Assembly (NCBI GenBank): GCA_903850425.1
Contig: CAINLR010000001.1
Coordinates: 62,001 to 126,000, forward strand
Direction of reading: 5' to 3'
Length of the DNA stretch: 64,000 nucleotides
Source of the DNA: an uncultured Verrucomicrobia subdivision 3 bacterium
GTDB lineage: Bacteria; Verrucomicrobiota; Verrucomicrobiia; Limisphaerales; UBA11358
A program made the position numbers and the translations under genes. This document shows positions 46,663-64,000 of this stretch, in pieces. Position 1 is the stretch's first letter, and each line of letters opens with the position of its first letter. The notes beneath the pieces are model-generated. The model made no database searches and had not been told where the DNA came from. It worked only from the letters and a program-made list of their open reading frames with translations.

Positions 46663-49338
46663 CTAAGGACTGACCCGCGCACGATAAAATTCCTGCGGAC
46701 TGTTCGTGGTTGAATCCGTCGTGAAACTGAACACTCCGTTGGTGCTGGTCAGGTTCGTCAGCACGCTCCAGTCGGCGAGATTCGTTGAAGTATCAATCGT
46801 GTAACGCCAGAACGCGTCCCCGCTAAAACAAATTTGCAACGAGCCGTCGGGCTGCCCGTTGATGGACTGGAACTGGGCCGCGCCGGGCGGCACCAGCGCG
46901 AGCACGGCGTTGGAACTCACGACGGCTCCGGCGAGGTTGGTGGCCAGGAGGGAATAATTTCCGGTGTTCGTGGCGGCGACGGAGGCCAGGGCGAAGTTGG
47001 CATTGGTCGCGCCGAAAATATTCGTGCCGTTGAAGCGCCATTGGAAATTCGGCGCGGGCACGCCGCTCGCGCTGGCGGTGAACTGCACATTGGTTCCCAG
47101 CTTCACCGTTTGCGGCAGCGGGTTCGTCCTGATGAGCGGTGCCACGGCGGGCACTTCCACGCGCACATTGTCCACCAAACCGAAGCTGAGATTGGGGTTG
47201 TCGGACACCGAGGGGAACGAATCCCAGTAGCCGATGAAAATATTGCTGGCGGTGAATGTGACATTGGAAATGGCGGCGATTTTTAGTCCGTCAATAAACC
47301 ATTCGATGGTGCTGTCGGTTTTGTTGATGACCACATCCCGCCACGCAAAACCCACCGTGCCGACCTCCAGAGCTCCGGTCTGCTGGGCGAAACCGGACTG
47401 CTGCAATGAGGGGGCGGTCTGGCCGCCGGGAAAAACATTCGCGTAATAGGGATGGCCATTGCCGCGCACATTCGTATCGGTGCCGCCGCTGTAACTACCG
47501 GTGGTTGCCGCCAGCAACGTGGGGCCGAGATACGCGCGCCAGTCGGGCAGGGTGGCCGAGGTGTCCGTGGCCTGGCCTTCGCCATCGGTCGCGAACCACG
47601 CGCCGTCCGCGGCGCCGCTGTTCCATTGCACGCTATTCCCGGCAGTGCCGAGGCCGGCGGTGACATGTTCGGTCGAACCCGTTCCGCCCAATGGAAATGG
47701 CCCGTTGGCATTGATCCACAGGTCAAAGTGCAGCCGATAATTGCCGGCGAAACTTTGGCCTATCGGTGACATGTTCAGCGCCGCCGTGACGCCGAGCGAC
47801 AGGTTTGCCTCAAATTTCACGCCTTTGGTTGTGCCACCGAGGGAGTTGGGCGCGGAGGGAATTCCGCGCGCTGAATAGTCGAAGGGAAAGGTAATGCGCG
47901 TGTCGGCAGACGATGGGTTCAGCGTCCAGTTGGCGGCAGAGTTGGTGTCGAAATTATCGCTGAAGACGGGTGTGAACAGCGGATGGACGGTGAGCACGGC
48001 GACACTGCTCGTCACGCTGCCGAAGGTGTTCGTGAGGATGACGGTGTAGTTTCCGGCGTTGCCGGTCTGGACGTTAGTCAGCGCGAGCGTGGAGTTCGTG
48101 GCATTTGCAATGTTGGTTCCATTCAAGCGCCACTGGTATTTCAACGTCGGCGAGCCATCCGCTGCGACGCGCATGGTGATGGCCGAACCCAGATCCGCGA
48201 AACGGCTCGACGGGGTGGAACTGATTGTGGGTGGCAAATTGCCCAGCGCGGTGCCGCCGATGGCGGGCCATTTGTTTGGCGTGACTGCGTGGTGCTGGCA
48301 GCTCCACCAACTGACGCCGCGATACCCGCCCGACGTCGCGGCGGGCGAATTGGTTTTCAGCGCGTTGATGAAATTGGTGATGGACGAGCCGTCCACCAGG
48401 CCGTTGACGGAATTGTAACCCTGGCCGATGGGCACAATCGGCTTGATGGCATTGGTGCTGAAGCCGGTCAATCCGTTTTGCCAGTTGCGCCACTCAGTGT
48501 TCAGGCGCGTGACCATGGTAACGGCGTAATTGGTCCCGCCAATGTCTGCCCAATACGCCTGCGGCATCACGGCATCACAATTGGTGCCGAACGCGACGTA
48601 GGGAAAACCGGAATGCGAACTGATGATCGGATAAGGCGCGTGGGCAAGAAAGCGGGTGGGGTAGGCCGCGCGGATGCCCTGGCAATAAGCGGTCGCGGCG
48701 GCGGCGTTGTTGGCCAGGACTTCGTATTCGGTTTCCGCATCAATGATGAAACCGTCCGCACCCAGGCCGAGGCTGTTCGTGGCGACGAAAATTTCACCGG
48801 CGACATTCGCCCCGTAAGCGTAGGCCCAGCCGAAAATTTTCAGGCCGGCCGCGTGTGCGCGGTTGACCAGGTCGGCGGTGAATTGAGGCGCACCGGCGGA
48901 AGGATAGAGGCTGCCGCCGTCGCCGCATTTGACGGTGATCCACTGCATCCCCTTGGCTTTCTCGTAATCAATCACACCCTGGACATCCGCCACGCCCAAC
49001 GAAGAAAGGCAACTGCTCATTTGCCAGATCCAGTCGCCCTTGCCGAGGTTGGCGGCATCCACGCCATTGTCCAAGGTGAGGTGGAATGGGATGATCGGCG
49101 TGGGGCTGGGTTTCGCTGGCGCGGCCACGGCGTTGGTGGCTTCACTGGAATGATCCGAAGGGTCAACCCCCGGAGGCGGCCATTGCCCGTCATGCGTGCG
49201 CCGGTAATATAAATCCGCATCGTCGGGCACGGCGCGCGCAAAAATTGTCAGCGCAGAAATCAAAACGCCCACCGCGCCAGTCCACTGGAAATTAAGAAAA
49301 GAGTTTCGGCGTAAACTTTTTCGCAGCGCGAACGGCAT
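46663..49338 (-). CDS. Secreted protein with TIM-barrel-like domain and Ig-like repeats
   Basis: An 891-residue exported protein (signal AVGVLISALTIFARA). Residues ~75-400 read as a glycoside-hydrolase-like (beta/alpha) barrel: GKGDWIWQMSSCLSSLGVAD, MQWITVKCGDGG, AGLKIFGWAYAYG and GLGADGFIIDAETEYE. An Ig-like domain follows (KYQWRLNGTNIANATNSTLA), then a ~200-residue lectin-like segment and a second Ig-like domain (NFQWRFNGTNIFGATNANFA) with a C-terminal YRARVSP end. The Ig pattern PxYQWxxNGTxI is common in Verrucomicrobia surface proteins. The enzyme substrate is unknown; the acidic pair in IIDAETE is a candidate catalytic site. Confidence 0.75.
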   Translation of the reverse strand: MPFALRKSLRRNSFLNFQWTGAVGVLISALTIFARAVPDDADLYYRRTHDGQWPPPGVDPSDHSSEATNAVAAPAKPSPTPIIPFHLTLDNGVDAANLGKGDWIWQMSSCLSSLGVADVQGVIDYEKAKGMQWITVKCGDGGSLYPSAGAPQFTADLVNRAHAAGLKIFGWAYAYGANVAGEIFVATNSLGLGADGFIIDAETEYEVLANNAAAATAYCQGIRAAYPTRFLAHAPYPIISSHSGFPYVAFGTNCDAVMPQAYWADIGGTNYAVTMVTRLNTEWRNWQNGLTGFSTNAIKPIVPIGQGYNSVNGLVDGSSITNFINALKTNSPAATSGGYRGVSWWSCQHHAVTPNKWPAIGGTALGNLPPTISSTPSSRFADLGSAITMRVAADGSPTLKYQWRLNGTNIANATNSTLALTNVQTGNAGNYTVILTNTFGSVTSSVAVLTVHPLFTPVFSDNFDTNSAANWTLNPSSADTRITFPFDYSARGIPSAPNSLGGTTKGVKFEANLSLGVTAALNMSPIGQSFAGNYRLHFDLWINANGPFPLGGTGSTEHVTAGLGTAGNSVQWNSGAADGAWFATDGEGQATDTSATLPDWRAYLGPTLLAATTGSYSGGTDTNVRGNGHPYYANVFPGGQTAPSLQQSGFAQQTGALEVGTVGFAWRDVVINKTDSTIEWFIDGLKIAAISNVTFTASNIFIGYWDSFPSVSDNPNLSFGLVDNVRVEVPAVAPLIRTNPLPQTVKLGTNVQFTASASGVPAPNFQWRFNGTNIFGATNANFALASVAATNTGNYSLLATNLAGAVVSSNAVLALVPPGAAQFQSINGQPDGSLQICFSGDAFWRYTIDTSTNLADWSVLTNLTSTNGVFSFTTDSTTNSPQEFYRARVSP

Positions 49339-49357
49339 AACGGCGCGGCCTACTTTA

Positions 49358-50446
49358 TTAGCCCAGCGGCATTCCATGCGCCTCGGCCACCGCTTTGTAA
49401 GTGACCTTGCCATCCTTGATGTTGATGCCGCCGAGCAGCGCGGGATATTTCTGACAAGCCTCCTCCACGCCGAAGTCTGCCAGCATTTCAAGATAGCGAT
49501 ACGTCACATTCGTCAATGCCTGCGTGGCCGTGCGGGCATACGCGCCCGGCATGTTCGCCACGCAATAATGCGTCACGCCTTCCTCGACATACACCGGATT
49601 GTGATGCGTGGTGGCGCGCGACGTTTCGGCGCAGCCGCCCTGGTCAATCGCGATGTCCACCAGCACGCTGCCGGGCCGCATCCGGCGGAGCATTTCGCGG
49701 GAAATTAATTTCGGCGCTTTCGCTCCCGGCACTAGCACCGCGCCGATCAGCAAGTCCACCGTCGGCAGCAAATCCATCAGATGCGCCTCGCTGGAAAAGA
49801 GCGTGTGCGCCGTGTGTAGCGTGATGTCGAGAAACCGCATCCGCTCCAGATCCACTTCGAGAATCGTCACGTCCGCACCCAGTCCTTGCGCCATGCGGGC
49901 CGCGTTCACGCCCGCGGCACCGCCGCCGAGCACCACCACTTTGCCCGGCAACACGCCCGGCACACCACCGAGCAGCGTGCCGCTGCCGCCAAAATGTTTG
50001 GCCAGAAAATAGCCGCCGACGAGCACGCTCATGCGCCCGGCGATTTCGCTCATCGGCTCGAGCAGCGGCAGCCGGCGGTTCACTTCGATCGTTTCGTAAG
50101 CGATGCACGTCGCGCCGGATTTCATCAACGCCTCGGTCAGGGGCCGGCTGGCGGCGAGGTGCAGGTAGGTGAACAGAATTTGTCCGGGCCGCAGCAGCGG
50201 CAGTTCGCTGGGCAGCGGCTCTTTGACTTTGATGATCAAATCGGCTTCGGCAAAAACCGTCGCGTGCGAATCCACGAGTTTCGCGCCCGCCGCTTCGTAT
50301 TCCGCGTCGGGGTAACCCGCGCCGATGCCGGCACCGCGTTCAACGACGGCCTGGTGGCCGCGCTTGATGAGTTGATAGACACCGCTCGGCAACAAAGCGA
50401 CGCGGTATTCCTGTTCTTTGATTTCTTTGGGAACGCCTACAATCAT
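49358..50446 (-). CDS. ald: Alanine dehydrogenase
   Basis: A 362-residue NAD-dependent L-alanine dehydrogenase. It has the N-terminal [20 protein letters not shown], the active-site region [11 protein letters not shown], the dinucleotide-binding [16 protein letters not shown] and the C-terminal [20 protein letters not shown]. It interconverts alanine with pyruvate and ammonia in the cytoplasm. No co-transcribed partner is apparent; the secreted-protein gene starts 19 bases after its stop. Confidence 0.93.
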
Positions 50447-50566: not shown

Positions 50567-51730
50567 TTACCGACCGGGCCCCAGCACGCGCTGAATTGTC
50601 CAGCCCAAGGCAATGAGCGCAATTACCGAAGAAGCCGGAACCACGATGGCGCGCCGATACCACGGCCGGTGGCGAAACCAGCCGACGGCGAGAAAAGCGC
50701 TGGCGATCACCGCGAGCTGACCACATTCTACGCCGAGGTTGAAGCCGACCAGGCCGGTGAGAAAATTCTCCCGGGGCAGGCCGACCTGGGCGAACGCGCT
50801 GGCGAAGCCGAGTCCGTGAACCAAGCCGAAACAAAAAACTACCGCATAGCGCCACGGCTTTATTTCTTTGGTGAAAATATTTTCCACCGCCACAAATACG
50901 ATAGACGCAGCGATCAATGGCTCCGTGATGGCGGCGGGCAGTCGCACCACGCCATAGAGTGCCAGCCCAAGAGTGATAGAGTGGGCGATGGTAAAAGCAG
51001 AGACCTGCCAGAGCAGTGGTTTCAGCCTTGCGCTGAACAGAAAAATTCCCAAAACAAAGAGGATGTGATCCTGTCCCTCGGGCACGATGTGGTGGAAGCC
51101 GACGATGAGATAACGACCAATGGCAACCAGCTTATCGCCGGCTCGTGGCGTTTGAAGGGCAATGCTTACCTGGCTGGAGTATTCGCCGGCGGAAACGGGT
51201 TCGTCGTGACTGTTGCCACCAGGCAGTTCGAGCACATGGACGGTATCGCCCAACACATACGGCAGGCGGATCGCGAGCGTGTGCGCGTGGTCGGGGAGCG
51301 TTCCGGAAAAAACAATTTCGCCCGGCACCAAAATGCGCGGCTGCAAATTGCGCGCGAGCACCGCGTCCACCGTTGCCAAATCAGGCAATGTCCATGCGGT
51401 GATGGTGGCATTGCCGACATCGGTGCGCATCACGACCTCGTGGCGAAAGTTTTCGTCGGCGAGTGCGAGATCATCTGCCAGCGTCGCGCGCGGCCCGGCC
51501 AGCAGGGCTTCGAGTTGATCGTTGCTGGTCTTGAGCGAGGTCTCGCCCAAGGCGAAAGAAAGAATGTCAACGTTCAGCGAGGCGCTAAAGTGTCCGTTCG
51601 GCTCGACCTTGACTTGCAACGTGGTGAATTCCGTGGGATGCGCCCCGGCCGCTTGGGGAAATAATAAAACGGTCAGCAAAAAGGCCAGCCCGGCAAGGGC
51701 TGGCCTTGAATGGAAGCGACGACAGCGCAC
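50567..51730 (-). CDS. HupE/UreJ-like membrane protein
   Basis: A 387-residue protein with signal peptide (LAFLLTVLLFPQAAGAHP), an exported beta-rich domain (about 30-190) and a C-terminal HupE/UreJ membrane domain of about six spans with GFHHIVPEGQDHILFVLG. HupE/UreJ proteins are linked to nickel/cobalt handling, but no hydrogenase or urease genes are near. Its GTG start overlaps the GH38 stop (TAGTG). A terminator-like hairpin lies within its signal-peptide codons, so how it is expressed is uncertain. Confidence 0.8.
   Translation of the reverse strand: MRCRRFHSRPALAGLAFLLTVLLFPQAAGAHPTEFTTLQVKVEPNGHFSASLNVDILSFALGETSLKTSNDQLEALLAGPRATLADDLALADENFRHEVVMRTDVGNATITAWTLPDLATVDAVLARNLQPRILVPGEIVFSGTLPDHAHTLAIRLPYVLGDTVHVLELPGGNSHDEPVSAGEYSSQVSIALQTPRAGDKLVAIGRYLIVGFHHIVPEGQDHILFVLGIFLFSARLKPLLWQVSAFTIAHSITLGLALYGVVRLPAAITEPLIAASIVFVAVENIFTKEIKPWRYAVVFCFGLVHGLGFASAFAQVGLPRENFLTGLVGFNLGVECGQLAVIASAFLAVGWFRHRPWYRRAIVVPASSVIALIALGWTIQRVLGPGR
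51678..51707 (-). terminator. Intrinsic-terminator-like hairpin after the GH38 gene
   Basis: On the minus strand a perfect 11-base-pair stem (AAGGCCAGCCC / GGGCTGGCCTT, loop TTGCC) is followed by a T-run that starts with the stem's last bases (TTTTTGC). It begins 22 bases after the GH38 stop and sits inside the 5' codons of the HupE-like gene. It fits a Rho-independent terminator or attenuator. Confidence 0.65.
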
Positions 51731-54700
51731 TAATCAGGTTTGGTTTTCGCAAACAGCTCCTTGACCTCCGCCGCGGTGAGCGCGCCGCGACGGATGGTGA
51801 AGGATTGAAGCGAGCCGTGGAAGCTACGTTCATGTTCCCAAGGATCCGGCGTGCCGATGTTCACGAATGAATTTGCGTCGTCCTTCAGTTCAATATCGCG
51901 ACGGCCAATGGGCGCGCCGTCTTTATAGAGCGCGAGCGTTTTGCCATTGAAAGTCGCGGTGAGCATTTGCCAGCGGCCGACTTCGAGCGGGGAACGGCTC
52001 ACGACATCTTGATTGGCCGCCCAAAAGCGGATGCCATCGTTGATGATCGCAAAATAGCGGCTGGTTCCGCCATCGGAATTATCTTCATCTGTGCCGAAGC
52101 CCGCGATAATGATCCGGTCTTCCGGCGTGCGCTCCGGCTTGACCAAAACATTCATGGTCCACATGTCGCTCTTCTTCAGCGGCAAGCCGGCGACATTGGT
52201 CTTGATACCCTTGGCCGAAAGTTGAGGCGCTTTCATGGAATAGGCTAGATTCTGGGCGTCGAACGGCAATGAGGTTGGGGTAATGACATTACCATTGGCG
52301 CTCCGATCTTTGACTCCGCTTACCTTGAGCGTGAAGTCCTTTCCGGCCGGAATCGGCGCGGCAAAAGTCACCGTAACATTTCGGCCATCGGTTGATTGCG
52401 TAACTTTGCTGATGGCCAGAGCCGGCTCCACCACATAATTGTTCGCATCCGCTGCCGTTGCCGGATCAAGTGATTTGGAGAAAACCAAATCAAGTGCGGT
52501 CAAATTTTTATCTGCCAACATGCTCACGACTGCGGGCGGGGTGTTGTCATGAATTTCAATATTACCCCGAACGATCGGCCCAACTTTGCCGTTTTCATCA
52601 ATTTGGGCGACGGCGATTTTTACCGGGTCGGAACACATAATAGGCTCGAAGTATGCGGGCGAACTGGCGATTGGATCACTGCCGTCCAGCGTGTAATGCA
52701 AATCGCCGGGACGATGATAAAGCGGCGCGATCAGCGTGATAGCAGTCGCTTGATTATAACTCTGGCCCGCTTGCGGAATGACGGGCCCGCCACCGGGCTG
52801 ATGATTGGCAAGCGTGTCATAGAGCGGTGCCGCCGGCGGCGTGGCGGTGGGTTCGCTGGCCACGCTCACGGCGAAGACGCGGATCTTGGAATTATCCGGC
52901 AGCGTCAGATTCTTCGTGCCGGCGGGCAAATCGTAGGTGAGTTCGAACAGATACGAAAAGCTGTAGAAGGCATCACCCTGAGGTGTGTTGTGGTGCGTGG
53001 CAAACCAAGCGACCGGCGTGCGTTTGATAAAGCCCGGCGTGAGACCAATCGGCGGCTGGCTCGGTTCTAGGTCGATCCGCTGATTCGGATTATCCCAAAC
53101 GCGGTTGTCCCATTGGCCGATGTAGCCGGTCCAATTGGGAATGTTAAAGGACTGCGTGCCGGAACCGATTTTGAGCTGACCCGTCGCGTCGCCGTCAGCC
53201 GCCACCAACAGATGGACGCGATTGAAATTTCCGATCGGCAAGTCAAGGCTCTGGCCGCGCGCCGTGACAGCGTTCTTTTGGCCATCAGCAGCGGAACCGA
53301 GTTGGAACTCGACGCCTTCACGGGTGATTTGTTTCGGAAACATTTCGGCCGGATACGCCGCGCCGCTGGAGTTCATGGCGCCATCGTCGCGCTTGGTCCG
53401 GCTGCTGACGACGTCCGTATCGAAACTCAGCGGCACCGCTTGACTGGACACGCGTGCCACCGTTGCGGTCGGTGGCGCGAGCTTGAGCGCGAAGGCTTTT
53501 AGTCCGAATCCCTTCATGCTGAAGTTGAGCTGGCCAGCTTGAATCGTGGCATTGCCAATGGGCGCTTCCTGACCATTCACCTCGCGAGCAGCGGTGATGG
53601 CGACCGGGAAACGCAGCGCGATATTTGCGGCGGGCTTACCGGTAAGTTCTTTGAAGCGGACAATAATTTCGTCGCTGTCTTCGGCTTTCTTCACGGCTTC
53701 GACTTGAACCTGGTCGCTATTGACGGTCAGCAACGAGAAGGTGCGGGCGTTGCCGGAATGCGCTTCCGGCAGAAACGCGCGCAGCGGTTGATTAAGCCGC
53801 GCGGCCTGCCACGCGTCACGACCTTCGCTCCAATCACCCTTGTGGCCGGCGATGGCATAGACGATTTCATGACGGCCCTGATCCTGCGTGCCCTGATCGC
53901 GATAACCACCGCGCGTGCCAGGCGTGTAGAGCAGCGTGAGGCGCAGCGTATTATTGTCGGGTTTGTCGGAACCATATTTGGAGTCGCTCATCACTTCCAC
54001 GCCATAGCCGCCACTGGCGTCGGTAAGATCCATCCATTGTTGCAGCGGCAATTCGAAGCGCGTGGGCTTGTCATTGTCGCGTATTGAAACGCCGACTTTG
54101 TCGGCAAAAGCCGCATTGCTGTTGGCGGCGGTGAAAGTAAAATCGGCTTTCAAGCTGGCTCCAAACGAGCGCCAGTCAATGTTGTTGAACAGTTCAACGC
54201 GGTCGCCACCACTGCCGGCGGCCAGTCGGATTTGCTGCGTGAAGGTGCTGTTCTCCGTCGTGCGTTTGACTTCGAGAGTCACGCGAGCCGGGCCGGATTC
54301 GACGATGCGAATTTCCGCCGGGCCTTCGACGAAACCACGCGCGGGCTTTTGGCGATCTTCCCAATCCATGTTCCAAGCCGGCCACTGCGCCGGATTTTCC
54401 GAATGGAATGAAAGCCGTGCCGGAGCGGAGAGTAGTTCGCGATTGAGCGCTTTGTCGAAAACGGAACCGATGTCACCGGTGGCATTCAGCGAGACTTTGT
54501 AGCGAGCGTTTTCAAGTGTGTTGACAGTGACGGCCAGACTAGACGCCGCTGCGCTCGTCGCTTCCGGGCGCACATCGTAGATGGCGTAACCGACTGAAGG
54601 AACTTTCGCAACGAAGAGCACGCGGAGCGTATTGCCATCGCGTCCGAGAATCTGCGTCGGCACCGGCTGACCCTCTGGATTGTAGGCCGTGACGGCACCA

Positions 54701-56034
54701 GGAACTTTTCCGGCAAACGAAATGTTAGCTTCAACCGCATCTTCGCGTTCGATCGCGAGCGGATTATAAACCGCGACCGGAACGCCTTTGGCGGTGGTAT
54801 TGAGAGTAGATAGCACAGCGGCAGAAGAACGTTCGGCAACGTAAGCGAATTGATTCAGCGCCAGAACTTCGTCGTTCCAGGAGTATTCGTAAGCCTTCGG
54901 CAAGCTGGTGCCGGGCATGATGTCGTGCATCTGGGAACCGAGCACCAGATCCCAACCCGCGTAGATGGTGGACTGCGGATAAGGCGCGGCGCCGAGCCAG
55001 TAGGCAATCGTGGCCGCGCTTTCGGCGGCGTTGGCGAGCTGCTCATTCTGCCGGTTCCATCGCTTCATGTAAGCTTCCGAGGAAAGCGAGCCGGCCGAGT
55101 GATTGACCAACAGCAAGTCGCCTTTGTAGGTCGGCAGCTTAGCGGCCTGTTCCAGGCTGATGTCATTATACATTTCGTCGGAGCGCGCAGAGATCACGCG
55201 AACCGGGCTGTTATTGGTCATCGCGCGTTCGATCCATCTGACGGATTCGTCGCTGGGAGCGCCGCCTTTGTCGCCCGTGCCGTAATATTTGTAATCGGCA
55301 AAGACGCCTGACTTTTCACCGGTGACATTGATGCGCTTGAGCCATGATTCGCTCTTGCTCAAGTCTTCCGTCACGCGTGCGCCGTAGCCGCCGGGATTCA
55401 AGGCGGCGATGACCGACGATCCGTCCGGTCCAACCCATGTGCCGATGCTGAAAGGAACTCCAATCGCCGAGCCCCAGGTGAGTTTCTGGGTGGAAAATCC
55501 CTTGAGTCCTTCATGGGTAAAGATCGTGGGCAGTGAAGCGGGAAACCCAAAACAATCCGGCAGCAAATAGTCGTCGCTTTGGATGCCAAACTCACGCTTG
55601 AAGTAATGATTCCCGTAAAGCGTCTGGCGGACAAACGATTCGAGCGAAGGAATGTTGGCATCGTTTTCGTCCACCGACGAACCGCCCGGATACCAGCGGC
55701 CTTGTTGAACATATTTTTTCACGCGCTCGAAGCCTTCGGGATAATACTCCTGCATGAACTCGTAACGCCGCGAACCGGTAAAGTTAAACACATAGTTCGG
55801 ATATTTTTCCAGGAGAGGGAAGTTCTGCTCCATCGTGTTGCGCACAAAATCCTGGATGGTGGTGTAGTAAGACCAGCGCCATTGCGTGTCGAGGTGCGCG
55901 TAGCCCACGACATAGAGATTCTTGTCCTGCGCGAGATCCGCCGGCTTGGCGGGTTGTTTTTGAAACGCGTCGGCGCCGAACAAGGCGGTGGCAACGCAAC
56001 AGTTGCACATTAAGAGGCCGAAAACTTTTTTCAT
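51730..56034 (-). CDS. Very large GH38 alpha-mannosidase
   Basis: A 1434-residue exported glycoside hydrolase family 38 enzyme. After the signal (FGLLMCNCCVATALFGA) the catalytic domain shows the zinc site YAHLDTQWRWSY (His47, Asp49) and the nucleophile motif LLPDCFGFP (Asp160). The family beta domains follow. C-terminal additions include a chitobiase-like module (LHYTLDGSDPIASSPAYFEP, about 1110-1130), a bacterial Ig-like stretch and a LamG/concanavalin-like end (about 1290-1430). GH38 removes alpha-mannosyl residues by a retaining mechanism. It lies 31 bases after the PTS gene, so sugar release and uptake are probably co-regulated. Start 56034 restores the signal peptide. Confidence 0.9.
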   Translation of the reverse strand: MKKVFGLLMCNCCVATALFGADAFQKQPAKPADLAQDKNLYVVGYAHLDTQWRWSYYTTIQDFVRNTMEQNFPLLEKYPNYVFNFTGSRRYEFMQEYYPEGFERVKKYVQQGRWYPGGSSVDENDANIPSLESFVRQTLYGNHYFKREFGIQSDDYLLPDCFGFPASLPTIFTHEGLKGFSTQKLTWGSAIGVPFSIGTWVGPDGSSVIAALNPGGYGARVTEDLSKSESWLKRINVTGEKSGVFADYKYYGTGDKGGAPSDESVRWIERAMTNNSPVRVISARSDEMYNDISLEQAAKLPTYKGDLLLVNHSAGSLSSEAYMKRWNRQNEQLANAAESAATIAYWLGAAPYPQSTIYAGWDLVLGSQMHDIMPGTSLPKAYEYSWNDEVLALNQFAYVAERSSAAVLSTLNTTAKGVPVAVYNPLAIEREDAVEANISFAGKVPGAVTAYNPEGQPVPTQILGRDGNTLRVLFVAKVPSVGYAIYDVRPEATSAAASSLAVTVNTLENARYKVSLNATGDIGSVFDKALNRELLSAPARLSFHSENPAQWPAWNMDWEDRQKPARGFVEGPAEIRIVESGPARVTLEVKRTTENSTFTQQIRLAAGSGGDRVELFNNIDWRSFGASLKADFTFTAANSNAAFADKVGVSIRDNDKPTRFELPLQQWMDLTDASGGYGVEVMSDSKYGSDKPDNNTLRLTLLYTPGTRGGYRDQGTQDQGRHEIVYAIAGHKGDWSEGRDAWQAARLNQPLRAFLPEAHSGNARTFSLLTVNSDQVQVEAVKKAEDSDEIIVRFKELTGKPAANIALRFPVAITAAREVNGQEAPIGNATIQAGQLNFSMKGFGLKAFALKLAPPTATVARVSSQAVPLSFDTDVVSSRTKRDDGAMNSSGAAYPAEMFPKQITREGVEFQLGSAADGQKNAVTARGQSLDLPIGNFNRVHLLVAADGDATGQLKIGSGTQSFNIPNWTGYIGQWDNRVWDNPNQRIDLEPSQPPIGLTPGFIKRTPVAWFATHHNTPQGDAFYSFSYLFELTYDLPAGTKNLTLPDNSKIRVFAVSVASEPTATPPAAPLYDTLANHQPGGGPVIPQAGQSYNQATAITLIAPLYHRPGDLHYTLDGSDPIASSPAYFEPIMCSDPVKIAVAQIDENGKVGPIVRGNIEIHDNTPPAVVSMLADKNLTALDLVFSKSLDPATAADANNYVVEPALAISKVTQSTDGRNVTVTFAAPIPAGKDFTLKVSGVKDRSANGNVITPTSLPFDAQNLAYSMKAPQLSAKGIKTNVAGLPLKKSDMWTMNVLVKPERTPEDRIIIAGFGTDEDNSDGGTSRYFAIINDGIRFWAANQDVVSRSPLEVGRWQMLTATFNGKTLALYKDGAPIGRRDIELKDDANSFVNIGTPDPWEHERSFHGSLQSFTIRRGALTAAEVKELFAKTKPD

Positions 56035-56065
56035 AATTATTGGGGGAGCGTTTTGCGAATTGAAC

Positions 56066-58570
56066 TTAAAATATTTTTTGCACCACGGCACAAAGCCGGT
56101 CGGGATCAGTTTCTCGTTCGAGTTCCGCGCGAAAATCGTCGTCCATGATCTGCCGCGCGAGTTTGGCCAGCACTTGCATGTGGGCATTGCCGCCCTTCGC
56201 CGCGCGAATGCCGAGCAGAATCACCACGCGCACCGGCTGGCCGTCGAGCGAATTCCACTCCACCGGCGATTTCAGTTTGAGCAGCACCAACGAGTTGAAA
56301 CGCACGGCGTTCGTCTGGCAATGGGGAATGGCGAAGCCGTGGCCAAAGCCGGTGGAATAAGTTGCCTCGCGCCGCCAAACCGCATCTTCCACCGCTGGGG
56401 AATCATCGGTCCGCCCCATGACAAACAGACGGTCAACCGCCTGCTTGATCACTTCTGCCTTGGTCGTCGCGTCGCAGTCAATCATGACCAAATCGGTCTC
56501 CAGCAGCGGCACGTTGACTTGCGCCGAAAATTGTTCCAGCAGCGCGCTCACATCATCCGCCGTCGCGCAGTTCAACGCGGCTTCCAGCAACTGTTGACAT
56601 TTAGGCTGGTTCAGCCGAGCCAATTCAGCCTTAAGCCCGGCGACCGACGGCGCAGCGGCGCTGATTTTATTCAAACCAAGCCCAGCCAGCAGCGGCAGAA
56701 AACGCACTTGTCCGCCCATTTCACCGCACAAACTGATTTCCTTTTGCTGCGCCCGCGCGGCATCCGCGATGAGTTTGAGCAGGCGAAGAAAAGCCGGTTG
56801 CAGCGGATTCAACAGCGTTGCGAGCTGCGTATTCATGCGGTCCGCAGCCATGAAATACTGAAGTAGATCATTTGAACCGATGCTGAAAAAATCCAGTTCC
56901 TGACTCAGCGCGGCCATCGCCAGTGCCGCCGCTGGCACTTCGATCATGGCACCCACGGACATGGCTGGATCAAAGGCGATGTTTTCCGCCGCACATTTTT
57001 TTTGCTCCTCGACAACGATGTTTTTCACCCAGCGCGCTTCATCCACTGTGGCGATCATCGGAATCATCACACTCAATTTTCCGTTGGCCGAGGCGCGCAC
57101 CAGCGCCCGGATTTGCGTGCGGAACAGCGCTTCAAATTCTGGATAAATCCGGACCGCTCGCCGGCCGAGAAACGGATTTTCCTCCGCCGGCAAATTGAGA
57201 TACGCCAGCGGCTTGTCGCCGCCGACATCCAGCGTGCGAATCACCACCGGCCGGCCGTTCGCGGCGGCGAGCACGGCTTGGTAACTTTCAACTTGTTCCG
57301 ACTCGTCCGGCGGCGTGGGGCGGTCCAGAAACAGCATTTCGGTGCGGAATAGCCCAACGCCTTCCGCGCCGGAATCAAACGCCCCGGCTGCTTCTCCGGC
57401 GGTGGAGATATTGGCGGCGATTTCAATTCGTTGTCCGTCCTCGGTAGCCGCGTCGCGGGCAGCTAATTTTCCAAGTCGCGCTCGCCGGCCTGTGATGCGC
57501 CGTTCTTCCAGCGTGTAATAGCGCCGAGCCGCATCCGTGAGATTCGTCACGAGCGCACCGGCATCCGCATCCACCACGATTTCCTGATGATCAAATTGAA
57601 TCGTCGAAAGATTCGTCACGCCGGCCAGCGTCGGGATGTTAAACGAGCGGGCGAGAATCACCGTGTGCGAAGTGCCGCCGGCTCTGGCCAGCACGAGGCC
57701 TTTCAAAAACTTCCTGTCGAGCGCGAGAAATTGTCCGGGCGTCAGCGCTTCGGCGACGACGACGGCATCGGCGGTTAATTTGACCTCGGCGGACTTGGCA
57801 GCTTCGCCGTAAATCTCTCCCAACAGTTGCAGACAGACATCCTGAATGTCCAATGCCCGCTCACGCAACATTTCGTTGCCGCTCGCCGCCAGCAGGTTTG
57901 AAAAATGCAGCTCTGCCTCTTCAATCGCGCCCGCCGCCGTGCGCTGACGTGTGATCACCGCCTCGCGCAAGCTGGTGCGAAAATCCACATCGCGAGCGAT
58001 GGACTGATGCACCTTGACGAGTTCCGCCTCGATGTGCTTCGTGCGGCCCAGTCGCTGAAGGTAAGTTGCGTTTAATTTTTCCAGCGCCGCTTCCAATCGT
58101 TGCCATTCCATTTCTGTGTCAGTCACGCCGTGGCGCGGCAGCGATGGCGGAATGGAAAATTTTCCGAACGGCACCACGCGTCCGCGTCCGATGCCCGGCA
58201 CCACGCGCTGGCCGCGATAAATCGTCGCGCCAGCATCGCGCAAGCAGGGTGAAAGTGGTGTGGCGGCCTCGGTTTTCGTCGCCGTCAGCGGCGCATCGCA
58301 ATGGGGAAATTTATCACGCAAAAAGGCGCGTAACCCCGCCATCGCCTCGTGTTCATCCGGCCCGCTCACCGTGAAGACACAGGAGTCCCCCATCCGGACA
58401 TCCGTGCCAACCATCGCCAGAATACTCTTGCCGTTGGCGGCGCGCTGCGTGCGGCGGTTGAACAGCGTCACGGCGGAAGAAAAATGACGCACCACTTCTT
58501 CCAGCGCACTCGCGGGCCGCGCATGAATTCCGCTAGGCAGCGGACAAACGAATTCCTGCTCCAGAGCCAT
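56066..58570 (-). CDS. HPr-Enzyme I-EIIA phosphotransferase fusion
   Basis: An 834-residue single polypeptide containing three PTS units. HPr is N-terminal with His16 in PSGIHARPASALEE. Enzyme I follows with its phospho-His near 302 (GGTSHTVILAR) and the ISLCGEMGG catalytic Cys motif. A C-terminal fructose-type EIIA has its His near 750 (GFAIPHCQ). It carries phosphate from PEP to the separate EIIB encoded 5 bases upstream. Fused arrangements exist elsewhere in other domain orders. No phosphofructokinase gene is in the window. Confidence 0.93.
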   Translation of the reverse strand: MALEQEFVCPLPSGIHARPASALEEVVRHFSSAVTLFNRRTQRAANGKSILAMVGTDVRMGDSCVFTVSGPDEHEAMAGLRAFLRDKFPHCDAPLTATKTEAATPLSPCLRDAGATIYRGQRVVPGIGRGRVVPFGKFSIPPSLPRHGVTDTEMEWQRLEAALEKLNATYLQRLGRTKHIEAELVKVHQSIARDVDFRTSLREAVITRQRTAAGAIEEAELHFSNLLAASGNEMLRERALDIQDVCLQLLGEIYGEAAKSAEVKLTADAVVVAEALTPGQFLALDRKFLKGLVLARAGGTSHTVILARSFNIPTLAGVTNLSTIQFDHQEIVVDADAGALVTNLTDAARRYYTLEERRITGRRARLGKLAARDAATEDGQRIEIAANISTAGEAAGAFDSGAEGVGLFRTEMLFLDRPTPPDESEQVESYQAVLAAANGRPVVIRTLDVGGDKPLAYLNLPAEENPFLGRRAVRIYPEFEALFRTQIRALVRASANGKLSVMIPMIATVDEARWVKNIVVEEQKKCAAENIAFDPAMSVGAMIEVPAAALAMAALSQELDFFSIGSNDLLQYFMAADRMNTQLATLLNPLQPAFLRLLKLIADAARAQQKEISLCGEMGGQVRFLPLLAGLGLNKISAAAPSVAGLKAELARLNQPKCQQLLEAALNCATADDVSALLEQFSAQVNVPLLETDLVMIDCDATTKAEVIKQAVDRLFVMGRTDDSPAVEDAVWRREATYSTGFGHGFAIPHCQTNAVRFNSLVLLKLKSPVEWNSLDGQPVRVVILLGIRAAKGGNAHMQVLAKLARQIMDDDFRAELERETDPDRLCAVVQKIF

Positions 58571-58575
58571 GACGA

Positions 58576-58872
58576 TTATTTCGCCTGGGCGAAAATGGCT
58601 TCCGGATCCTTCAGCGCCGCCTGGACCGGCACTTGAATTTTGCGCGCGTTGGCAAATCGTTCCTCTTGTTCAATCGCAATGTCCGTCGCGAGGATGACCG
58701 CATCGGCGGCATCCACTTCGGCTTGCGTCAATTCGTTTTGAATGCCCATGGCCCCCTGGGTTTCAACCTTGATGGTGTGCCCCAGTTTCTTGGCCGTTTT
58801 TTCCAGTTGGGCGGCGGCCATGTAGGTGTGGGCGATGCCCGTCGGGCACGCAGTGACAGCGACGAAGTTCAT
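58576..58872 (-). CDS. PTS fructose-type EIIB
   Basis: A 98-residue soluble EIIB of the fructose family with the phospho-Cys in VTACPTGIAHTYMAA (Cys9). It takes phosphate from the EIIA domain and passes it to the sugar in EIIC. In most FruA systems it is fused to EIIC; here it is a separate short protein. It lies 8 bases from the EIIC gene and 5 bases from the HPr-EI-EIIA gene. Confidence 0.9.
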   Translation of the reverse strand: MNFVAVTACPTGIAHTYMAAAQLEKTAKKLGHTIKVETQGAMGIQNELTQAEVDAADAVILATDIAIEQEERFANARKIQVPVQAALKDPEAIFAQAK

Positions 58873-58880
58873 GTTTTATT

Positions 58881-59933
58881 TTATTTCGTGGTGGCGGGAT
58901 TGGAATTTTTTTTGATTAAATTAATCGTGATGGCGGTGACGAGTGAGCCGGTAATAATCGCGACCACGTAAATCAGCCGGTGATCAATCACGGGCAGAAC
59001 AATCGGCCCGCCGTGCGGCGCGTGATCGCCCACGCCGCCGAGCATCGCAATCGTGGCGGAAACCATCGAGCCCAACATGATGGTTGGAATTACCCGCAAA
59101 GGATCGCCGGCCGCAAAGGGAATCGCCCCCTCGGTGACGCCCACCAAACCCATGCCCAGCGCGGCTAGCCCGGATTCGCGTTGTTCTTCCGTCCAACTTT
59201 TGCGGCCGATTAACGTTGCCAATCCCAAGCCGAGCGGCGGCGTGCAAATGGCGGCGGCACAGGCACCCATGATGGCATAATTGCCCTGCTGAATCATGGC
59301 CGCGCCAAAGAAGAACGCCGCCTTGTTGACCGGTCCGCCCATGTCGAAAGCGATCATCGCGCCCAACACCATCGCCAGCACAATCTGCGACCCGCTTTGC
59401 AAACCTTCCAAGAACTTCATCATATCTACCATGATGGTCGCGATTGGGATATTCAACGTCAGCATCAGCAAACCGACGGGCAAGGCGGACAAAATCGGAA
59501 TCACAATGATCGGCATGATCGGCCGAAACATCGTCGGCACCTTGAGTTTTTTCAGCAAGTTTGTCACATGTCCCGCAACCATGCCGATGATAATCGCGCC
59601 CAGAAACCCCGCGCTCGCGGATTTGCCGTCCACGATTTGCGGCATGCCCGCGATGAACCCGCCGACAAATCCCGGCACCAAACCTGGGCGGCTGGCCATG
59701 CCAAACGCTATGAAACCGGCCAGCACCGCTGGAAACAATTGGAACGCCGTCGTGCCAATCGTCAACATTTTTTTGACCAGTGCCGGGGCTTTGGAAAAGT
59801 CCGGGCCGGTGGCCGTCATCGGCACAAAGGTGATGGATAGCGCAATCAAAATGCCGCCACAGGCAATAAAGGGAATGACGTGGGAAACTCCGGTCAACAG
59901 ATACTGTTTATGCTTTTGCAACAAGGCTTTCAT
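58881..59933 (-). CDS. PTS fructose-type EIIC permease
   Basis: A 350-residue EIIC with about nine or ten hydrophobic spans. Signatures are LTGVSHVIPFIACGGILIAL near the N terminus, AFDMGGPVNKAAF in the middle and GVTEGAIPFAAGDPLRVIP, the sugar-site motif of the fructose/mannitol group. It forms the membrane channel. Whether it takes fructose, mannose or mannosyl sugars cannot be settled; the two adjacent mannosidase genes favour a mannose-related substrate. Confidence 0.9.
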   Translation of the reverse strand: MKALLQKHKQYLLTGVSHVIPFIACGGILIALSITFVPMTATGPDFSKAPALVKKMLTIGTTAFQLFPAVLAGFIAFGMASRPGLVPGFVGGFIAGMPQIVDGKSASAGFLGAIIIGMVAGHVTNLLKKLKVPTMFRPIMPIIVIPILSALPVGLLMLTLNIPIATIMVDMMKFLEGLQSGSQIVLAMVLGAMIAFDMGGPVNKAAFFFGAAMIQQGNYAIMGACAAAICTPPLGLGLATLIGRKSWTEEQRESGLAALGMGLVGVTEGAIPFAAGDPLRVIPTIMLGSMVSATIAMLGGVGDHAPHGGPIVLPVIDHRLIYVVAIITGSLVTAITINLIKKNSNPATTK

Positions 59934-60008
59934 GCTTGGTTAGTGGGGCTTTAATGGGTGATGTGATTGCTGATTTGAACTCATTCTGCATTTCCGCCCG
60001 CCTGCGGG

Positions 60009-60033
60009 CAATCTCAAAGCTTTGCGGAGATTG
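60009..60033. promoter_or_regulatory. Inverted repeat upstream of the PTS operon
   Basis: CAATCTC (60009-60015) and GAGATTG (60027-60033) are perfect inverted arms around an 11-base centre containing AAAGCTTT. It lies about 76-100 bases before the EIIC start on the minus strand. It could be an operator or a leader hairpin. No promoter pair was convincing in the 280-base gap. Confidence 0.3.
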
Positions 60034-60213
60034 TAAACCGGCCAAATATTCAAAGCGCCCGCCTGCTTGGTGATTGACAAACAGAAGCAGCGGTCGGCTT
60101 GATTGTGTGGCATTTCATTGGTTTAGAAAAGTAACGGCAATCGCGCCCAGTAGCCAGCCCCCCAATCTGATAGTTTTCGATTCCAGCTCATTCCCTGATT
60201 GCGTCATGAATGC

Positions 60214-61314
60214 TTAATGTTCCGATTCGCCCGGAACTTCCGGGATACCTGGATCATCAAGAATTTGCACGGCGGTGGCGCCACATAGCGTTTTCCAATC
60301 TTGCAGCACCCAGACGACTTTCTTGTCCGGAGTCACTTCGACCAGTTGCGGGCCTCTGCCATTGTCGCCGCGCGAAGTCAAGATGGTGTTGCCGTTGGCC
60401 AGCCGGGTGGCCGTCTGCGCAGCGGAGGCCAGACGATATTGCTCCGGCAGATCACGGTTCTTGAGTTCCCAGACTGTCTGGCCTTTGGAATTAACTTCAC
60501 GCGTGAGGTTGTCGCCTTCGGCGGAGATCAGGGTATTACCGTTCTTGAGCCGGATGGCCGCCCATGGCATCTTGATTTTATATTGCCAGATTTCGTTGAA
60601 ATTTTTGTCATATTCCACGATGACGCCCATGCCGAAGACAGAGACGAGGTAGGTGCCTTGGCTGGTGACGCGCGTCCGGCGGAACTGTCCATGAATCCCG
60701 TTGGGATTCGGCGGCTGGCTGAACGGGAGGACATGTTCAACCTCGGTGGCTCCGGTCTTGATGTTGACGACCATCAGCTTGGGCGGCAGCCCATTCACGA
60801 CGAACATGACCCGGTCTAACCCGATGGGCTGGCAAGTATGGATTTCCGTGTGATTGGCGCCGCCGGCCTTATTGCAATCATAGCGCCACACCACTTTTTT
60901 ATCCGGCGTGATTTCGGCAATGTATTCCATTCGGGTATAGAGAATGTTGCCGTTGGAAAGCATCCACACATCGTCGTATTCGTAGCTCGTGCCGGTGGAA
61001 TAGGTCCAGATCACCTTGCCATCGTTGACGAGGAACATCTTGTCATAATTCTCACCGACATACAGCATCGGGTGCTGCGCGAGACCTTTGCCGGGCAGAT
61101 TGGGAGGCGTGATGCCGTTCGTCCACTTGCCGGCGGGCGACGGAGTTTCGTCCAGCCCCAGCGCCGGCACATTCGCGGCGGTGAAGAGATGGAGCACATC
61201 CATGCAAGGTGTCGCCGAGGCCGACTTGGTGGTCGGCGTGTAACAGCCAGTCGCAGTCGCGAGCAAGCCGATGGCCGTGAATGCCGCCAGAAGGGAGCGA
61301 AGGTTTCTATTCAT
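60214..61314 (-). CDS. Lipoprotein with beta-propeller-like repeats
   Basis: A 366-residue lipoprotein (LLATATGCYTP lipobox). The mature protein has repeated motifs such as VIWTYSTGTSYEYDD, NGNILYTRMEYIAEITPDKK and VVWRYDC, repeated later as NGNTLISAEGD, NGNTILTSRGD and VEVTPDKKVVWVLQD. These are typical of arylsulfotransferase/PQQ-like propellers. It probably faces the periplasm. Its position between GH92 and the PTS genes suggests a binding or scaffolding role in glycan use, not shown. Confidence 0.75.
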   Translation of the reverse strand: MNRNLRSLLAAFTAIGLLATATGCYTPTTKSASATPCMDVLHLFTAANVPALGLDETPSPAGKWTNGITPPNLPGKGLAQHPMLYVGENYDKMFLVNDGKVIWTYSTGTSYEYDDVWMLSNGNILYTRMEYIAEITPDKKVVWRYDCNKAGGANHTEIHTCQPIGLDRVMFVVNGLPPKLMVVNIKTGATEVEHVLPFSQPPNPNGIHGQFRRTRVTSQGTYLVSVFGMGVIVEYDKNFNEIWQYKIKMPWAAIRLKNGNTLISAEGDNLTREVNSKGQTVWELKNRDLPEQYRLASAAQTATRLANGNTILTSRGDNGRGPQLVEVTPDKKVVWVLQDWKTLCGATAVQILDDPGIPEVPGESEH

Positions 61315-61401
61315 GCTAAATAATTTTAGAGTTGAGTCACTTCTATAAAGCGATTGTTCTGGCCAAACATGTTTTGATCGGATGGTATCGCCCTATTCTT
61401 G

Positions 61402-63582
61402 CTACTTCAAATAAATATCCAGTTCCTTGCCCTGCAGCATGTCGGCGTAGTTGACAAACCATCCATCAAGAGGTTTGCCGCCGATGGTGATTTTAACGAT
61501 GTTCTTGCCTTGGCCTTTTTTGACGATGGTGAAGGTTTTGCCATTGCCCAGGGTCATGGCGATTTTGTCGAACATCGGCACCGATACGATATATTCAGGA
61601 TCGGCGGGCGAGTAGGGATATATGCCCATCGCGTTGAAGACATACCAACCGGTGAGCGAACCCTCATCATCCATCCCTGGCAAGGCCAGACCTTCGGGCC
61701 CCATGCCAAAGTAATGGGCGAGCAGTTTGGTGAGGATCGCCTGTGCTTTCTCCGGCTTGTTGATGAAATAATAGAGGTAAGGATAGCCGATGTCCGGCTG
61801 GTTACCCATGCAGAACTGTCCGAGAAAACATGATAGATTATCCACCGCATAACCTCGCCAAGGCGCGGTAAAGAGGGTGTCGAGTTTCTGCTCAAAATCC
61901 GCCGGGCTTTGGTAGAGGCTGATCAAGCCCGGCGTATTCTGCGGCACAAAGAAAGATGCCTGCCAGGCATTTGCCTCGCGATACATATACTCGTAGTAGG
62001 GATAATAGGGATCGAACGGCGTGCACCAATTTCCATCGGCAAGGCGGCCCCGCATCAACTCCGATTCTGGATCGAAGACGTTCTTATAGTTCTGGCTGCG
62101 CTTCATCATCTGGCTGTAAACATTGGTATCCCCCAGCGCCTTGGCCAGCTGGGCAATGGCATAATCGGAATAGGCAAATTCAAGCGTCTTGGTGGTTCCA
62201 GCAGTTGATTTGGTTTCGGTTACCGGGTGGGCGATGTTGACTTCGGGAACATAGCCTGACGCCAGATACTCTTGGTTGTGAGGCCGGGCCCGATTACCGT
62301 CGGTCGTATTGGCATTGTTCAGCATGTAACCGAATGCCTTTTGAACATCATAGCCTCGAACATCGCGCAGATACGACCCCGTGATGTAAGCCGAACCAAA
62401 ATCACCGTGGAACGAGGTAGGCAGAAATCCTGAACGCGCGCTGCCGCGCAGCATGGAGTTGATAATGTCATTGCTGACATCGGGAACCAGCATATCCAAC
62501 AGGACCAGTTGGGTGCGGAAGACATCCCACAAAGCCGGACTCCCCAGATTTTCGGGTTCAGCGCCCGCGTCGCTTGAAGCGTTCGGGAACCAGAACTGCC
62601 GGAAGAGACAGGAGTAGAACAGCTCTTTCTCTCGGTCGGTTCCTCCGGTTACCTGAATCTTGTTGAGAACTGTTTCCCAGGTTTGATCGGCCGCTTTATA
62701 AACCTGATCAAAGCTCTTGTCGGCAATTTCAGCTTCCAAGTTGTGTTTGGCCGCTTCAACACTGGTATAGGAAAGGGCGATCTTTACCTCCAAAGGCTTG
62801 CTTTCGATTTCGAAGCCGATGACGGGCACATCAATCTGGCCGCTGATTCTCCTTTGGCCGCCGGCGCCCTGGCCAGAACGCGGGATGTTGGGCTGGTTGG
62901 GATTGCGCTTGTAATTGCCGATGCTTTTGATGCGGTGATTCATCACGGCATAAAAGCACAAACCGCCCTGTTTGCCCGAAACGGCATGGTCGCCCGCTGG
63001 TTGCAAATCCCAACTGCTGCTGCCGCCGCCTGCATGCACCAAGTCGAAGGCGAGTTTCTTCTCTTGTCCACCTTGATAGGTGAATCGGTAATAGGCACAA
63101 CGTCTAGTGGCGGTAATCTCAGCGTTGATGTGATAGCGCTCAAGAAAAACCCGATAATAGCCGGGGTGGGCCGATTCGTGGGTGTGGCTATAGCTTGATG
63201 CGAAATCATCGGCAGTGAAGCCGTTGCCCTCAAGCGGCATCAAGGGAAGGTTCTGTCTTCCCCACTGCGTGTTGCTCGTCTGCGCGAAAGCCTTGATTGT
63301 GTTGACTTCGTATTCATATCCGCTGCCGCTGCCATAGGTGGTGATCGGACCTGCCTGAACCATCGCAAAGGGAACAGTTGCCGAGGGCGCGTTCAGGCCG
63401 TTCCAGGTGCGCCAAGGCGGAACATAGCCAAGGTCGGCACTGTTGGTCAGAACGGTGGTTCCGAGAAAGGGATTCACATAGTCCACTGGCCGCTTTTGAG
63501 CTTGCGCAAGGCACGTCGCAATCAACATCAGGCCGAGCGAAAGAAAAGGTTTAATCAGGGGTGTTCGCATGCAAGAGCGCAT
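61402..63582 (-). CDS. GH92 alpha-mannosidase
   Basis: A 726-residue exported glycoside hydrolase family 92 enzyme. After the signal (LSLGLMLIATCLAQAQ) it opens with the family hallmark VDYVNPFLGT. The C-terminal (alpha/alpha) barrel contains YREANAWQASFFVPQ, whose Glu (about residue 536) corresponds to the general acid region, and DDEGSLTGWYVFNAMGIYP. GH92 are calcium-dependent inverting exo-alpha-mannosidases acting on N-glycans or mannan. The galM-like gene ends 9 bases upstream, so the two are probably one transcript. ATG at 63570 is an alternative start. Confidence 0.92.
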   Translation of the reverse strand: MRSCMRTPLIKPFLSLGLMLIATCLAQAQKRPVDYVNPFLGTTVLTNSADLGYVPPWRTWNGLNAPSATVPFAMVQAGPITTYGSGSGYEYEVNTIKAFAQTSNTQWGRQNLPLMPLEGNGFTADDFASSYSHTHESAHPGYYRVFLERYHINAEITATRRCAYYRFTYQGGQEKKLAFDLVHAGGGSSSWDLQPAGDHAVSGKQGGLCFYAVMNHRIKSIGNYKRNPNQPNIPRSGQGAGGQRRISGQIDVPVIGFEIESKPLEVKIALSYTSVEAAKHNLEAEIADKSFDQVYKAADQTWETVLNKIQVTGGTDREKELFYSCLFRQFWFPNASSDAGAEPENLGSPALWDVFRTQLVLLDMLVPDVSNDIINSMLRGSARSGFLPTSFHGDFGSAYITGSYLRDVRGYDVQKAFGYMLNNANTTDGNRARPHNQEYLASGYVPEVNIAHPVTETKSTAGTTKTLEFAYSDYAIAQLAKALGDTNVYSQMMKRSQNYKNVFDPESELMRGRLADGNWCTPFDPYYPYYEYMYREANAWQASFFVPQNTPGLISLYQSPADFEQKLDTLFTAPWRGYAVDNLSCFLGQFCMGNQPDIGYPYLYYFINKPEKAQAILTKLLAHYFGMGPEGLALPGMDDEGSLTGWYVFNAMGIYPYSPADPEYIVSVPMFDKIAMTLGNGKTFTIVKKGQGKNIVKITIGGKPLDGWFVNYADMLQGKELDIYLK

Positions 63583-63591
63583 ATTTCTAGC

Positions 63592-64000
63592 TTATTTTGC
63601 CATAAAGGTAAACAGGGTCGTTTCCTTCAATCGTTCTCCGGGCCGAATCACGATTGACGGAAAATTGGCGTGATGGATAGCGTCCGGGTAATGTTGAGTC
63701 TCCAGACAAACAGCGGTATGGCTCAAATGGTTGGCGGTGAAGAGTTGCACGGCAGGTTGGGTGGTGCGCACTTCCATGATCCGGCCGCTGCGGGGTTCCT
63801 CGAGTCGCGCCGCCAACTTCATGACTTGGTCTTCGCCCAGAATGTAATTGTGATCGTAGCCGTTCATCAGCGGCTTTAACTGTTCGATGCGGTCTCCAAT
63901 GCGAGTTGGTTGATTGAAATCCATGAGCGTGCCTTTGAGCGGCAGGATCTCGCCCGTGGTAATTGAATCCGTGTCCGTCGGGGTATAACAATTGGACGGA
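63592..64000 (-). CDS. galM: Aldose 1-epimerase, C-terminal part
   Basis: The 136 visible residues continue past the window edge. They include NCYTPTDTDSITTGEILPLK, LMNGYDHNYIL and the C-terminal QHYPDAIHHANFPSIVIRPG, all typical of galactose mutarotase/aldose epimerase. The enzyme interconverts sugar anomers released by hydrolases. It precedes GH92 by 9 bases, fitting a sugar-release operon. Confidence 0.9.
   Translation of the reverse strand, partial: PSNCYTPTDTDSITTGEILPLKGTLMDFNQPTRIGDRIEQLKPLMNGYDHNYILGEDQVMKLAARLEEPRSGRIMEVRTTQPAVQLFTANHLSHTAVCLETQHYPDAIHHANFPSIVIRPGERLKETTLFTFMAK

Follow-up and report, generated by a model that had tools for sequence, protein, structure and literature searches.

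Why does a sugar phosphotransferase system (PTS) stand beside alpha-mannosidase genes in a bacterium of the Verrucomicrobiota, and do enzyme and transporter serve one pathway? The question is raised by the right end of a 64,000-nucleotide stretch from an uncultured Verrucomicrobia subdivision 3 bacterium (contig CAINLR010000001.1, positions 62,001 to 126,000), hereafter the window, in whose own positions coordinates are given. There, a row of genes on the minus strand encodes an aldose epimerase, a GH92 glycosidase, a lipoprotein-like propeller, the PTS proteins EIIC, EIIB and HPr-EI-EIIA, a GH38 enzyme and a HupE_UreJ_2 protein. The core of this locus is EIIC-EIIB-(HPr-EI-EIIA)-GH38, plus HupE_UreJ_2. 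An earlier note, made from the letters alone, had missed HupE_UreJ_2 and listed the other genes; Pfam and NCBIfam matches confirm the genes, families and strand that it gave. It had also proposed that exported mannosidases of both families feed the PTS. In this study, we found that the coupling holds for GH38 and that GH92 lies outside the conserved module. Altogether, the earlier interpretation is partly supported.

We consider it probable that the locus is a catabolic operon for alpha-mannosides in which cleavage precedes import. GH38 would be exported and would release mannose from alpha-mannosides beyond the inner membrane, and the upstream GH92 and aldose epimerase, likewise exported, may serve the same breakdown. 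EIIC-EIIB and HPr-EI-EIIA would pass the phosphate of phosphoenolpyruvate (PEP) to the sugar, which would enter as mannose-6-phosphate and be converted to fructose-6-phosphate by ManA.

Recurrence of GH38 beside the PTS

Relatives of the locus were fetched with EIIC alone, using peptide patterns of the window protein, and the best 80 of 265 were kept, a set that leans to close kin. Adjacency was scored with a GH38 profile built from the fetched loci and meant a GH38 gene at most about 5.5 kb before EIIC or about 2.5 kb past the final PTS gene. GH38 adjoins the PTS in 42 of the 80 loci; 17 are without it despite long flanks and 21 are undecided at contig ends (28 of the 80 are shorter than 12 kb). 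Hence, GH38 stands beside EIIC and EIIB in 42 of the 59 decidable loci, and the HPr-EI-EIIA fusion is also present in 41 of these 42, L068 being without it. By the submitters' names, the 42 loci belong to Planctomycetota (14), Acidobacteriota (11), Aminicenantes (6), Verrucomicrobiota (3), Chrysiogenota, Bacteroidota, Ignavibacteriota and Gemmatimonadota (1 each) and others (4). In the EIIC tree they spread over most deep branches. L003 and genome G186 were treated as one organism because their contigs are equally long (57880), and L085, a copy of L003, was omitted from the tree; L004 and L005 come from one bin, and L034 and L036 are very alike. As labelled by hand, 28 loci have the GH38 gene downstream of the PTS, 10 have it upstream and 3 have it divergent, and in one (L024) GH38 flanks the PTS on both sides. 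On that Bacteroidota-labelled contig (L024:2224-16683), three open reading frames (ORFs) matching the GH38 profile surround the PTS.

As a control we used 11 further genomes of the class that hold a FruA-like fused EII: GH38 adjoins none of these 11 FruA-type loci. The base rate of GH38 N-terminal domain matches is 20 in 10 genomes, about 42 Mb. Because the arrangement recurs across loci and is absent from the FruA-type control, the link between GH38 and the PTS is real and exceeds chance. The earlier note had suggested looking for the gene order in relatives, and it is GH38 that proved conserved there.

The class sample of 236 genomes, which includes the window's own (G000), agrees with this result. 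An EIIC of the window type (at least 61% identity) occurs in 4 of the 236 genomes, which bears out the earlier view that PTS uptake is unusual in the group. GH38 of the window's type, type a (1e-100), occurs in 6, including all 4 with the EIIC (hypergeometric 1.2e-7 over the 236 genomes, uncorrected for kinship). The two stand together in G000, G186 and G015 and on different contigs in G022; G067 and G163 have type-a GH38 and no EIIC match. If our reading is right, phyla such as the Planctomycetota couple a sugar PTS to the breakdown of glycans. In the excerpt of Comas et al. 2008 (PMC2405797), the Planctomycetes and related taxa studied are without PTS transporters.

Enzyme, transporter and the probable sugar

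The GH38 protein probably starts at 56034, 51 codons inside the longest ORF. Its N-terminal, middle and C-terminal domains pass the Pfam cut-offs (148.1, 42.5 and 113.1 bits), and its motifs HLD 98, PDCFG 210 and MHD 420 (long-ORF numbering) align with HID, PDTFG and FHD of Ams1; we take these motifs to hold the metal site and the nucleophile Asp. Domains and motifs thus identify a putative alpha-mannosidase. The C-terminal extras are CHB_HEX_C/Fn3_assoc and LamG, the latter passing its cut-off in the window enzyme as well as in those of L002, L044, L061, L066, L067 and L086. The N-terminus is hydrophobic and signal-like, and the enzyme is probably exported. Moreover, two GH38 types occur beside this PTS, and both carry N-terminal hydrophobic segments, as judged by hydropathy rather than by a signal-peptide predictor: the first in 30 of 30 motif-caught rows (L085 duplicates L003), the second in 8 rows with intact N-termini. 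Nine of the ten upstream GH38s, all but that of L031, are 28-30% identical to the window enzyme; in L028 the GH38 domain begins at residue 291. That a single PTS type is accompanied by either of two GH38 types argues for a metabolic link between enzyme and transporter.

The transporter appears self-contained: Fru-type EIIA, EIIB and EIIC, HPr and EI are all found, with motifs in place that we take to be the phosphorylation sites, His motifs in all three parts of HPr-EI-EIIA among them. The fusion is 43% identical to E. coli PtsA. EIIC matches no Pfam family at 0.001 and stays below the cut-off of 426 of the Frw PTS equivalog NF007787. Among four E. coli references it is nearest to FrwC (45% identity), followed by FruA (41%), MngA (32%) and FryC (27%), and in the tree the EIICs of the module have FrwC as their sister (support 88). 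EIIB was compared with FruA (51%) and MngA (49%), FrwB itself being outside the comparison. A second EI-like gene (G000:C39:9682-10545, open frame of 629 aa) lies elsewhere in the genome, and PEP-utilizers_C matches occur in all 10 genomes searched, even those without EIIC.

FruK is found beside 0 of 82 window-type loci versus 10 of 11 FruA-type loci, and no 1-phosphofructokinase over cut-off occurs in the genomes G000 and G015; therefore, fructose is less likely to be the sugar. In turn, G000 has one mannose-6-phosphate isomerase (ManA), and 9 of the 10 genomes searched, including the four with the PTS, have ManA above the cut-off. We infer that mannose fits as the sugar. A PTS type to which the E. 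coli annotation assigns no sugar would thereby gain one that can be put to the test.

The order of events could be reversed, as in mngAB of E. coli, which the earlier note did not name: the PTS would import and phosphorylate an alpha-mannoside, for instance mannosylglycerate, and GH38 would cleave it inside. mngA-mngB is a known pairing of a Fru-family PTS with GH38 (annotation; excerpt of PMC2815779), EIIB is nearly as close to MngA as to FruA, and L041, a locus without GH38, has an MGH1-like gene between EIIB and the fusion protein (best Pfam match 33.1 bits, with other six-hairpin families scoring slightly lower). However, the hydrophobic N-termini of both GH38 types speak against cleavage inside, EIIC is nearer to FrwC than to MngA, and the NCBIfam mannosylglycerate hydrolase model gives the window GH38 87.5 bits against a cut-off of 1138, which makes import before cleavage rather improbable. 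It also seems unlikely that fructose or some other hexose is the sugar taken up by the PTS and that the neighbouring mannosidase is useful in the same glycan-rich niche, with no direct hand-over. EIIC does exceed the cut-off of 157.55 of the fructose EIIC family TIGR01427, and G186 and G022 carry fruK over cut-off elsewhere in genomes that have the window-type EIIC; against this stand the FruK distribution and the GH38 linkage across phyla. Joint inheritance of a transferred cassette, with linkage but no single pathway, would suit a PTS that is sparse in the class and yet found in several phyla, but a single cassette does not account for the presence of two GH38 types, differently placed beside the PTS, and we regard this reading as very improbable.

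The two facts that suit a fructose importer also weigh against cleavage followed by import, as do several others. The 17 long-flanked loci without adjacent GH38 belong to Bacillota (6), Planctomycetota (4), Verrucomicrobiota (3), Acidobacteriota (2), Ignavibacteriota (1) and Calditrichota (1), with GH38 farther off in L032 and L052, and loci without adjacent GH38 include unrelated neighbours, namely an OPT transporter (L020), IMPDH (L049) and GH35 (L032). There is no GH38 on the 12.8 kb covered around the PTS of G022, the absence of FruK rests partly on short, contig-cut loci, and promoter-like sites are not above shuffles (6 versus 7.2 expected).

HupE_UreJ_2 and the outer genes

The HupE_UreJ_2 gene (hereafter HupE) overlaps that of GH38 by 1 bp. 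Among the 44 HupE places listed in the class scan, the six best all adjoin GH38 (G000, G067, G022, G015, G223 contig C4 and G163). In G022, G067 and G223 the GH38 is divergent and over the Pfam cut-off, and these stretches gave no match to the PTS; in G163 both genes are cut, and the GH38 end precedes HupE on one contig. From the 38 other places we examined 21 (L099-L119, three with less than 4 kb on one side): one, a second copy in G223, stands beside GH38 (59.4 bits) and 20 do not. Among these 20, the copy on G223 contig C1 has an alignment spanning residues 9-355 and no GH38 on the 8.5 kb covered, a stretch that ends 0.3 kb beyond the gene; full-length alignment alone is therefore no marker of the GH38-linked HupE group. 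Beside the PTS, HupE follows the long GH38 in the window, L002, L044, L059, L061, L066, L067 and L086; it is absent after the long GH38 of L033, and L047 and L077 end too soon to judge. It follows none of the shorter GH38s compared, several of them cut off by the end of a contig, and is lacking at L095, a long GH38 of G015 away from the PTS. HupE stands beside GH38 away from this PTS in L088, L089, L090, L092 and L117.

The HupE model (pLDDT 77, pTM 0.55) has a predicted extracytoplasmic N-terminal domain that resembles the copper-bound Ang-1 domain 9gce (Z 13.6, root-mean-square deviation 3.5, 151 aligned residues) and the zinc-binding ZrgA and PA4063 (Z 8.6-10.8). At the sequence level 9gce gives no significant match (E 1.6), and the best fold matches of the membrane part (Z at most 9.3) are indistinguishable from common helical arrangements. 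His31 is invariant in 8 aligned HupE proteins and lies, by eye, at the likely end of a signal peptide; the unlinked HupE rows are local alignments in which N-terminal conservation is not judgeable. Based on the predicted fold, we hypothesize a metal role for HupE. A nickel or cobalt role is suggested by the family name and by an excerpt of PMC2667541, and GH38s dependent on Co(II) are described in an excerpt of PMC11697051. The idea of HupE as a nickel or cobalt supplier is weakened by the fold comparison, which ranks copper- and zinc-binding domains first. A broader and rather doubtful proposal is that the Frw-type PTS is in essence an importer of mannose, which exported GH38 enzymes supply, and that this HupE branch is a dedicated metal partner of GH38, whose predicted domain, with its invariant His at the likely mature N-terminus, would load or guard the mannosidase metal. 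If so, one operon would hold enzyme, metal supply and importer. The question raised is why HupE-like proteins adjoin GH38 genes, with or without a PTS.

The features of the locus are collected in Table 1.

Table 1. Features at the right end of the window, in the order of transcription
Feature	Position	Strand	Matches
Aldose 1-epimerase, C-terminal part	63592..64000, gene runs 677 bp past window	-	PF01263 100.1 bits
GH92 glycosidase, putative alpha-mannosidase	61402..63582	-	PF07971 392.8 bits, TIGR01180 424.6 bits
Lipoprotein-like beta-propeller	60214..61314	-	PF22701 36.0 bits; PDB propeller matches
280-bp gap between two gene groups	59934..60213	.	coordinates
PTS EIIC, Fru family	58881..59933	-	NF007787 342.8 bits, TIGR01427 281.9 bits
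PTS EIIB, Fru family, with Cys9	58576..58872	-	TIGR00829 116.9 bits
Multiphosphoryl transfer protein HPr-EI-EIIA(Fru)	56066..58570	-	PF00381, PF05524, PF00391, PF02896, PF00359
GH38 alpha-mannosidase (putative), 1434 aa	51730..56034	-	PF01074, PF09261, PF07748, PF17677, PF13385
HupE_UreJ_2 membrane protein	50567..51730	-	PF13795 160.2 bits, cut-off 24.5

From the epimerase to GH38, the gaps computed from the coordinates are 9, 87, 280, 8, 5 and 31 bp. Most are under 100 bases, as the earlier note had said, but the gap of 280 bp splits the row and is a possible start of a PTS-GH38 transcript, within which the genes may be co-transcribed. Terminator-like sites are not above shuffles (17 versus 20.1 expected), and no Rfam family exceeds its threshold in window 40000-64000. 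Joining the window to the adjoining stretch of the same contig gives an epimerase of 361 aa that starts at window-equivalent 64677, with an N-terminus that looks signal-like by eye.

GH92 passes the cut-offs with its N-terminal domain (128.9 bits) as well as its catalytic one, matches PDB 6f8z at 1.8e-91 and has an N-terminal hydrophobic segment at residues 8-26. As part of the conserved core it was rejected: the 80 loci hold no tblastn match to it at 1e-6, though an ORF of 112 aa, located where L003 ends, matches at 1e-5. In two other genomes, GH92s of 28-30% identity are found in the vicinity of GH38: G186 has one some 3.5 kb past its PTS-linked GH38, and G022 has two that precede the type-a GH38 away from the PTS. 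GH92 is thus loosely linked to GH38, in three genomes of one order and outside the wider module. The product that the earlier note called a repeat lipoprotein is present, and its matches point to a beta-propeller. It was likewise rejected as core, with a tblastn match among the 80 loci in L004 only, near the PTS and in opposite orientation. At 1e-70 it occurs in 4 of the 236 genomes, with three places in G000, and two more copies (70 and 73%) lie 2.4 kb apart at G000:C79:8939-13568 (L128). The earlier statement that no SusCD pair is visible agrees with the scan of 10 window proteins, none of which is SusC or SusD; the genome was not searched for SusD.

Neighbour clustering used ORFs chosen by length, some of which are antisense. 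An AraC-family gene lies near the PTS in 22 loci, divergent and directly before EIIC in 16, and Pfam cut-offs confirm the family in all three of the 22 that were scanned. The window PTS has no AraC gene; a 57% relative, AraC by Pfam, lies on G000 contig C169 (L124, G000:C169:16116-17024), divergent from a gene that, by eye, resembles those of sugar porters of the major facilitator superfamily. Its matched frame has two stops, and a 287-aa ORF is open. Among loci without adjacent GH38, L004 has GH76 directly after the PTS and also GH43, and L036 has GH130. The GH76 gene of L004 and the MGH1-like gene of L041 count in favour of the alpha-mannoside reading. In four Acidobacteriota loci (L012, L052, L056 and L058), large proteins that belong to one cluster are encoded near the PTS; the member at L012:6438-9254 is an outer-membrane barrel, and a TonB plug domain is weakly matched in it. 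A 942-aa ORF at window 46663-49491 has Ig-like domains (PF13927); its N-terminal half matches no Pfam family at 0.001. Just beyond the window, L082:6002-12239 holds two regulators (PF06971 with PF02629), presumably Rex-like, as well as genes like those of NuoE, NuoF and a [FeFe]-hydrogenase large subunit (PF01257, PF01512, PF02906).

Comparison with known systems

No paper describing the PTS-mannosidase or the HupE-mannosidase pairing was found by title and start of abstract in the open-licence PMC literature. The membrane part of HupE (PF13795) and its predicted extracytoplasmic domain recall HupE_UreJ_2 proteins with an Ang-1 domain (9gce), but adjacency to GH38 is confined to some homologues, the best-scoring ones. 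The closest solved structures to the window GH38 are Ams1/MAN2C1-like (7vqo, 9.2e-70), and the catalytic motifs align. However, the GH38 domain starts at about residue 280 in Ams1 and near residue 40 in the window enzyme (mature reading), and the signal-like N-terminus and LamG belong to the window enzyme.

As for the transporter, the FruA-FruK fructose PTS of the 11 other genomes of the class shares the Fru family and differs in its fused EII, in having FruK beside 10 of 11 loci and in lacking GH38. The E. coli Frw PTS (PtsA, FrwC, FrwB) is similar in its HPr-EI-EIIA fusion, its separate FrwC-like EIIC and its separate EIIB; its neighbours are fsaB and pflDC rather than glycosidases, the locus EIIC falls short of the Frw equivalog, and the Frw annotation names no sugar. 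E. coli mngAB shares a Fru-family PTS adjoining a GH38 alpha-mannosidase. There, MngA is a single IIABC chain, the regulator is MngR, and MngB, 23% identical to the window GH38, acts on a phosphorylated mannoside according to an excerpt of PMC2815779. Unlike mngAB, the window locus has an enzyme that looks exported and a PTS that brings its own EI and HPr. Most likely, cleavage precedes import at this locus, with an enzyme that would act outside and a PTS that would be self-contained.

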